Source of the DNA: Asterias amurensis
Lineage: Eukaryota > Echinodermata > Asteroidea > Forcipulatida > Asteriidae
Direction of reading: 5' to 3'
DNA length: 64,000 nt
Assembly (NCBI RefSeq): GCF_032118995.1
Contig: NC_092662.1
Location: 2,294,001-2,358,000 of the forward strand
This document shows, in pieces, positions 13,945-16,900 of this stretch. The notes below the pieces were generated by a model. That model did no database searches and was not told where the DNA came from. It worked only from the letters and a program-made list of their open reading frames with translations. Positions within the stretch are counted from its first letter, which is position 1, and each line of letters starts with the position of its first letter. Both the position numbers and the translations under genes were made by a program.

Positions 13945-16900
13945 ATGCAGGCTGAAGATGCAAGATATCTGAAAAGGTGAGTTACATCGACACTTTGTCT
14001 AGATACGGTGCCGACAGTCAGTGATTTCAGTCGATGGAATATCCGTCACGACCGTGGATGTTCCATTTTTACACGGGCCTGACGGGGCTGGAGACGGGGC
14101 CGGCTAGACCACTGAAAAGTGGCAGTTTCTCCTGGGCCGGGGCGCTGTACTCCTTTAGAAAATAATTTGTGACATCTGCGGTCATACTGACACTATTTTA
14201 CCGGGCAAACTCTCTCCCAAGACCTTGATATGGCAGTTTGATATGATTATTTGAACACCCGAACACAAACAAATTCCCATGTATAATTTTTATAAAGTTA
14301 AAAAGGCAAAGCAAAATGACAAAAATCACCTGTGAATTTTGTATTTTATGTCGTATGAGACCAAGTGTAGACCAAGTGACTGGGGCGCTGTCCTCCTTTT
14401 TGCGCCAAAGTTTATATAAGAACAAGTATTACTTTTAAGAGACCAACGCACAGACAGCAGTTCAGGTATGCTTATTATTTAAGGTACATAGTGCTTCAAT
14501 TATATTTCTCTTGTTTCTGATTATTTTACAGGAAGGTGAAGGGAGGAAGTATTGATGTGCACCCAACAGAGAAGGCCCTCGTGGTCAACTATGAGTTGGA
14601 GGCGACTATCCTGGGGGAGCTTGGTGACCCAATGCTGGGCGAGAGGAAAGAATGCCAGAAAATGTAAGCAAGGAAGAATCAGGTCTCAAAATAACCCAAA
14701 GCACTCTCAGCAACTGCCATGGTGCCCTGTGCTTTGATTTGCTGCCCTTTTGCAAAGTTCCAATAGAAAATGTTCATTTTCCTCAGAGTCAGAGAGTGAC
14801 CAGAAGAAAATTGAAAAGTTCAAGCCTAATATGAGCTCCATATTTGAAATCTTACCCGTAAGAAGCTACACCGAGGCCCAATTTTATAGAGCTGCTATCA
14901 GTCGATGTTGCGCTTACCGTGCGAGTTTCCATTTCATTAGTGAGTGAGGGTTGCGGTGACAATGTAAAATCTCTTGGGTATTGATGGCTCGCTCTGAGAA
15001 GAGCCCATTTGTACTGTTCTACGTTTTGGTCAGTTTGCAAAATGTGTCCAATTATAGGCACTGTAAACATTATCTCTTAAAGATTGAAAATCCAATACAA
15101 GTTTGTTTTTGTTTTTTGTCGCATCTGCAGAATCAGAGTGCGGAGCCTCAACTCAGCCACCGACATTGCCGTCTTGGCGAGGGAGGTGGTGGATAAATGC
15201 AAGCTGATTCATCCCTCAAAACTACCCGAGGTAGAACAACTACTGTACTACCTCCAGAACAGGAAGGAAACAGCGCCCTCTGGTGAGTTAGCGGAACAGT
15301 TGCATTCATTAATGTTTTGGGTTGTTGATGGTGTTGTTGTTTACTTTCGGGTGGGGATATGACAGCCGAGTGAACAAGATACATCAATTTGATACAAGGT
15401 AATAATTGCATTGGGAATAAAGAATGATATCTTTGGTTTCACCAATCACGGATGATTATGTTGAGTGCAAGTCTTAGTATCTTCCTGATTGTTGTAAAAA
15501 GATCTCACCGATTACAAGATGCACGTGTTAGTAGCTCTGTCTGTGCCCTCGAATGTTCCAATTCACTATGCCGCAATTTTTGTTCTTATGATTACAGCTG
15601 GGTCCAAGAAGGGTGTGATGACGGGACGATTAAAAGACCCTCCACCGTACGAAGGAACAGAGGTAACTATTAAATCATGTTCTTAGAAATTGCTGTGGTC
15701 TACCAGCTTTAAGACATATGTTTATGTGCAAGCAATTTTTCATGATTTTTCGCATTCATCAAGTCTCACCCTGACGTGCATACTTTTCCCTCCATCATTT
15801 CTTAGCTTGATGAGCAAGCAAACATCAACGATGTGGAGGATTATATCGAGCTCTTATATGAAGACATACCTGAGAAGGTCCGTGGCACGGCATTGTTGCT
15901 TCAGCTCGCTAGGAATCCGGACAACTTGGAGGAGATTCTTCAGAACGGTAAGCTGCGGGGATTGTTAGACTGGAATTTTGTGTGTCTGTCAAAGCTCAAT
16001 GCGTAATCCTTTGAAATGAAAATACAATTTATGTTCACTCCCAGTTCGGACTTGCTACCAACCTTACTGTCCAAAGTTGCGTCAGTCCAAAGAAACAAGA
16101 GAGTATGGAATCTATGAAGACACTATTTATTTTTCCCCGTTTCCAGAGACCGTTCTTGGGGCTCTTGCACGAGTCCTCCGCGAGGACTGGAAGCGAAGCG
16201 TCGAGTTGGCCACCAACATCGTCTACGTTTTCTTCTGCTTCTCGAGTTTCTCCCAGTTCCACAGCGTCATTGCGCACTTCAAGATCGGCGCCCTCGTGAT
16301 GTTTATCGTGGAGCACGAGATCAAACGACATGATCTGTGGGTGGACGAACTGCAGAAGAAGAGAAAAGCTGATATCCTTTGATTTCAATTTGCTGTTTTC
16401 TCTAAAGTTGATTTCTCCTAAAATAGATAGCTCAGTTGAAAGAGCGCCAGCACATTAGTCTGAAGGTCGTTGGTTAAAATCCCGCTCTATTAAAAAAAAA
16501 TTCTTTGTTCAACCCACAAATCTTTTGTTAAATTTTATCAGCAGTATGTTTAGGCTAAACAAGCTTGCGGTTCTGAGCCTATGTTTTGGTTATTATAGAA
16601 TCCTTAACCCGCAATCTCACCAGAGGAAAGTCCACAGGCTAAGAAAGATTACGAGAAGAACATGAAGAAGTACCACGGTCTCCTGAAGAAACAAGAGCAG
16701 CTACTCAGAGGTAAAAAAAAAAACACAAAGTTGAAACAATTTCAGATATAGAATCAATTATAAAATCGTGCAAAGTCCAGCACCAGAGAGTAGCTTAAAA
16801 ACCCGGTGGTTCCATGTTAGTGAAAAGTGGTTGGGAGAGTGGATGATACCTAAGCCTACATTCTTACAGACTGTGAAGGGGGTAACCACGTTTCAGCCGC

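Follow-up and report, generated by a model that had tools for sequence, protein, structure and literature searches.

The U12-type AT-AC introns of animals, a subtype that PMC7367187 puts at 26% of human U12-type introns, are characterized by the donor ATATCCTTT, the branch site TCCTTAAC, their 3' spacing, and their AT-AC ends. The intron at 16372-16620 of the KAP3 (KIFAP3) gene, located in the window (the whole 64-kb stretch of DNA analysed here), is like them in all of these respects and differs from them in no categorical way, while carrying a tRNA-derived repeat. The rare U2-type AT-AC introns, which belong to the major class, share its AT-AC termini, whereas the donor and branch motifs of the KAP3 intron are those of the minor class. 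Our reading is that this KAP3 gene is functional and that 16372-16620 is, very probably, one of its introns, with AT-AC ends and of the minor class (U12-dependent, A-type). A first-pass annotation had proposed an AT-AC minor-spliceosome intron at exactly this place in KIFAP3, and its gene, class, and boundaries hold on the sequence evidence. The intron is a well-formed case of an ordinary, well-understood feature, and it leaves the general knowledge of introns unchanged.

The host gene was modelled from its reading frame and splice sites, beginning with exon 2 (14532), and comprises 18 exons (exons 2-19) and 17 introns on the plus strand at 14532-25422. The joined exons give 818 codons with no stop, and a phmmer comparison of this 818-aa frame with the KAP3 chain 9w9h_C of the PDB yielded 1139.5 bits (E printed as 0) over query residues 1-681. 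A second solved kinesin-associated protein, 9ikb_G, was matched with an E value of 6.2e-112, and with these two structures homology extends along the armadillo protein. Exon 8 (examined as the stretch 17200-17373) matched 9w9h_C, kinesin-associated protein 3, with an E value of 4e-24, and it had a single match genome-wide (491.5 Mb in 23 contigs). By its open frame and homology, the segment from 14.5 to 25.4 kb of the window is predicted to encode an intact KAP3 (kinesin-associated protein 3). A search of viral and prokaryote contigs with the exon 6 protein gave 72 and 594 pattern matches, respectively, among which no relative was confirmed. The window belongs to contig C15. Another of the 23 contigs, 16,427 bases long, looks mitochondrial from its open frames (COI and others, in a 10,000-base portion, L007); frames resembling ND1 and ND2 are on the strand opposite to COI, as is the arrangement in sea stars, and the genome is probably that of a sea star. 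Translation tables 5 and 9 yielded identical long frames, so that the genetic code was of no help here.

Exon 6 (16147-16371), placed by its frame and its alignment to KAP3, ends with ...AAAGCTG, and exon 7 (16621-16710, or from 16624 if an AT-AG end is used), placed by the joined frame and junction scoring, begins with CAGAGGAAAG. The putative intron between them has 249 nt, lies on the plus strand, and is of phase 1. Its 5' splice site, ATATCCTTT at 16372-16380, agrees with the minor-class consensus RTATCCTTT at 9/9 positions, and can pair with U11 (at its 5' end) and U6atac as encoded in this genome. Near the 3' end, the motif TCCTTAAC at 16601-16608 supplies a candidate branch adenosine at 16607; read as nine bases, ATCCTTAAC, the site agrees with TTCCTTRAC at 8/9 positions, with the first base departing from the consensus. 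The motif is followed by CCGCAATCTC and then by AC at 16619-16620, so that the candidate branch adenosine lies 13 nt from the terminal base of the intron, a spacing within the 11-13 nt that passages of PMC3584512 give as the optimum for the branch-to-3' distance of minor introns. The first-pass annotation had described these ends correctly in terms of the donor, the branch motif, and the terminal AC, but had given the tail as 12 nt plus AC; there are in fact 10 nt plus AC, or 12 nt in all after the motif. The other 15 KAP3 introns (those other than 16372-16620 and 21595-22099) match the minor-class donor at 3-6 of 9 positions, and their best branch-like sites match the branch consensus at 5-7. 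U12-type AT-AC introns characteristically lack a distinct polypyrimidine tract; in 16372-16620, pyrimidines account for 13 of the 20 bases before the 3' end, a value inside the range of 12-18 in these 15 major introns. Unspliced reading past exon 6 meets a TGA at 16380-16382, in agreement with the earlier statement that read-through would end four codons on.

The AT...AC ends keep the host frame, and the junction protein that they would create aligns with KKKKAVDED...RKDYDK of 9w9h_C. The earlier claim that the frame could not be restored by any major-class boundary is false as worded. With intron starts at 16231-16600, ends at 16379-16688, a minimum intron length of 40 nt, and any dinucleotides allowed, we enumerated 4103 in-frame, stop-free junction pairs, among them 37 GT-AG, 32 GC-AG, 33 AT-AC, and 55 AT-AG pairs. 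Uniqueness by reading frame was consequently rejected as the main argument, and the case for the AT-AC intron rests on the motifs together with the frame. The 157 junctions of these four types were scored by global alignment to the corresponding piece of 9w9h_C. The best AT-AC junction, 16372-16620, received the highest score of all (532), although its margin over the best AT-AG (527) and the best GC-AG (523) junctions is small and lies in a poorly conserved linker. The frame does not uniquely fix the 3' end of the intron, as an AT-AG end at 16623 costs just one residue.

Among the alternatives, the one that survives best retains the same minor-class donor and moves the 3' end to the AG at 16623 (AT-AG, ...CACCAG/AGG), either alone or as a minor alternative to the AC, so that the protein would have one alanine fewer. 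This end is in frame and scores only slightly lower (527 versus 532, with one residue fewer); moreover, AT-AG is a recorded subtype of A-type introns in the passages used from PMC8280824, and 3' choice in the minor class is described as error-prone in those from PMC3584512. The latter passages, however, also describe AT-AG as disfavoured, and an end at 16623 would place the branch adenosine 16 nt away, beyond their optimum of 11-13 nt. We therefore regard use of the AG as unlikely, though the most serious competitor of the AC end.

A major-class GC-AG intron at 16368-16625, which would remove three residues relative to the AT-AC reading, is very improbable. It is in frame and free of stops, and its score of 523 is the best of its type, but its donor, AAA/GCTGAT, is far from the GC-AG consensus, AG/GCAAGT, and it would leave both the 9/9 minor-class donor and the properly spaced branch motif unexplained. 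The best GT-AG intron, 16341-16625, is likewise in frame; it scores 488, however, and would cost 12 residues that are partly conserved in 9w9h_C, while its donor, GTGGAC, looks weak by eye, all of which makes it scarcely credible. No GT-AG boundary among those scored restores the frame without a loss of conserved sequence (488 at best, against 532). That the locus is a decayed KAP3 copy with the motifs as remnants is equally far-fetched, since, despite the TGA carried by later units of a downstream 171-bp array, the 18 joined exons read through 818 codons with no stop, the sequence is conserved over most of that length, and exon 8 has its single match in the genome here.

The minor-class reading of 16372-16620 was further assessed against chance. 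The window contains two copies of RTATCCTTT, versus 1.47 expected on both strands, and 50 of 100 shuffled sequences reached two copies, so the count by itself is unremarkable. It is the position of the copies, and not their number, that is unusual: both lie on the coding strand, exactly at the ends of KAP3 exons, and each is paired with a TCCTTAAC motif that puts the branch adenosine 13 or 14 nt away from the final base of that intron. A composite search pattern (RTATCCTT, 50-1500 nt, the branch motif, 7-16 nt, and AC or AG) retrieved only the two KAP3 introns on the plus strand and nothing on the minus strand; 100 simulated sequences gave an expectation of 0.2 per strand. The joint chance of a donor and a spaced branch site is ∼4e-9 per fixed junction, and over all 4103 enumerated pairs it is at most ∼1.5e-5. 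Both figures are rough, in that they treat the motifs as independent and the background as a first-order Markov sequence.

All four of the minor snRNAs searched for were found in the genome above their Rfam cut-offs, namely U4atac (88.6 bits), U6atac (131.6 bits), U12 (125.8 bits), and U11 (100.5 bits). The two minor-spliceosome protein families searched, Pfam CCDC84 (CENATAC) and PDCD7, gave six and two matches above cut-off, respectively. By its gene content, then, the host is predicted to have a minor spliceosome. A second U6atac copy (L004:1501-1624), likewise above the cut-off, scores 105.3 bits, versus 131.6 for the copy in L003, and may be a gene variant or a pseudogene. The calculated duplexes between the U11 5' end and the donors have energies of -6.6 kcal/mol for 16372-16620 and -7.5 kcal/mol for 21595-22099, whereas those of the 15 major introns range from -3.9 to +1.3 kcal/mol. 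The corresponding U6atac duplexes have -6.5 and -7.4 kcal/mol, against -5.7 to +2.4 kcal/mol in the major introns. U11 pairing therefore separates the minor donors clearly from every major KAP3 intron, and U6atac pairing does so by a small margin. The energy of the U12-branch duplex was rejected as a discriminator, as the minor values (-6.5 for 16372-16620 and -7.4 for 21595-22099) fall inside the range of the major introns (-2.3 to -8.3).

We infer the cut sites of the AT-AC intron and its use in the cell from its motifs, their spacing, the reading frame, the complementarity to U11 and U6atac, and the snRNA genes. In the mechanism we propose, (i) the U11 snRNA would pair with AUCCUUU at the donor; (ii) U12 would pair with UCCUUAAC near the 3' end, leaving the branch adenosine bulged; (iii) U6atac would then take the place of U11 at the donor; and (iv) splicing would join 16371 to 16621.

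The first-pass annotation saw a single minor intron in KAP3 and overlooked a second one, the putative U12-type GT-AG intron at 21595-22099 (plus strand, 505 nt, phase 1). It begins with GTATCCTTTT, and its donor, GTATCCTTT, agrees with the minor-class consensus at 9/9 positions. Its branch site, TTCCTTAAC at 22078-22086, also agrees at 9/9 positions and is followed by CGTGGTTTTTCAG up to the end of the intron, which is 14 nt from the branch adenosine. In all three respects (donor, branch site, and distance from the adenosine to the end), it is like U12-type GT-AG introns generally. Its removal would join ...VIIKQT to QAPAYLIDL, which lines up with a 15-residue stretch of 9w9h_C. KAP3 here is thus predicted to contain two minor introns of phase 1, the first AT-AC and the second GT-AG. 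Sharing its gene with an AT-AC intron sets 21595-22099 apart from U12-type GT-AG introns in general, but such clustering is already on record: passages of PMC7367187 report that more than one minor intron per gene is commoner than chance in 21 of the 21 genomes tested.

The repeat inside the AT-AC intron lies at 16421-16526 (plus strand) and is tRNA-derived and SINE-like, as indicated by an Rfam tRNA match and by dispersed copies in the genome. Its first part, 16421-16493, matches the Rfam tRNA model with 32 bits. With 16421-16540 as the query, the sequence was found at no fewer than 41 places in the genome, itself included, when 40 of 769 candidates were scored; among the matches listed, the other 40 copies are 78-83% identical, and most of their alignments start at query base 4 and stop near base 100-118. 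Because of these many dispersed copies, we rejected a tRNA gene within the intron and take the stretch to be a repeat. It leaves both the donor and the branch site of the intron intact. In the 64-kb window as a whole, ARAGORN called no tRNA gene, while Rfam reported two tRNA-like stretches. The second of these, at 46061-46133 (37.4 bits with the Rfam tRNA model, and likewise not called by ARAGORN), is perhaps a repeat of the same type.

As a control, we examined another gene, NOP2, which is expected from human to carry an AT-AC intron. A likely NOP2 locus was found through the family TIGR00446 (11 matches, none of which reached the family cut-off), and 18 kb were taken around it. RTATCCTT was absent from the plus strand (the strand of the matches) of these 18 kb, outside of which the first exons may lie; two ATATCTTT near-matches were present (C18:7572165 and 7586469). 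The control locus (L024) further contained one GTATCCTT on its minus strand, where 0.81 were expected, and no TCCTTRAC on either strand. Taken together, the NOP2 control is uninformative to mildly negative.

Human KIFAP3 may have a minor intron as well. In the articles searched, no description of a minor intron in KIFAP3 was found, and PMC13216214, which deals with minor introns of ciliary genes, mentions neither KIFAP3 nor KAP3 nor kinesin in its main text. The AT-AC intron of KAP3 is a clean case of an intron expected to be mis-modelled by gene prediction restricted to GT-AG, because read-through runs straight into a stop and even the best GT-AG junction in frame loses 12 residues. CENATAC (CCDC84) promotes the splicing of AT-AN minor introns, and its depletion affects 92% of A-type introns, according to passages of PMC8280824. 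With a minor intron of each subtype, this ciliary-motor gene would make a handy test locus for the reported dependence. More speculatively, the output of KAP3, and hence kinesin-2 assembly and ciliary transport, might be tuned by the minor spliceosome, with the A-type (CENATAC-dependent) and G-type introns acting as two slow, separately regulated steps and with the choice between AC and AG at CACCAG giving two proteins one residue apart; we consider this a long shot, offered as a conjecture.

Several further features of the window were recorded. The KAP3 intron at 20261-21117 contains, at 20318-20427, an incomplete duplicate of exon 13 together with its donor; it is identical to 20154-20263 at 98 of 110 bases and is open in frame, and it is possibly an alternative exon or a decayed copy. 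Further downstream, a 171-bp unit is present in 6.6 tandem copies (97% matching) at 22654-23774, each derived from the end of exon 17, the GT donor of that exon, and the first part of intron 17. In this array the donor stretch recurs unchanged six times at intervals of 171 bp, and later copies contain TGA; the array may provide several competing donors or a KAP3 tail of variable length. Upstream of the gene, open frames are repeated at a spacing of 596 bp at 7445-8738, which suggests a recent tandem duplication. On the minus strand, 31067-32134 holds a 355-aa open frame with several hydrophobic stretches, which looks like a membrane protein, and at 34452-36722 there is a satellite-like array of a 30-bp unit in ∼76 copies.
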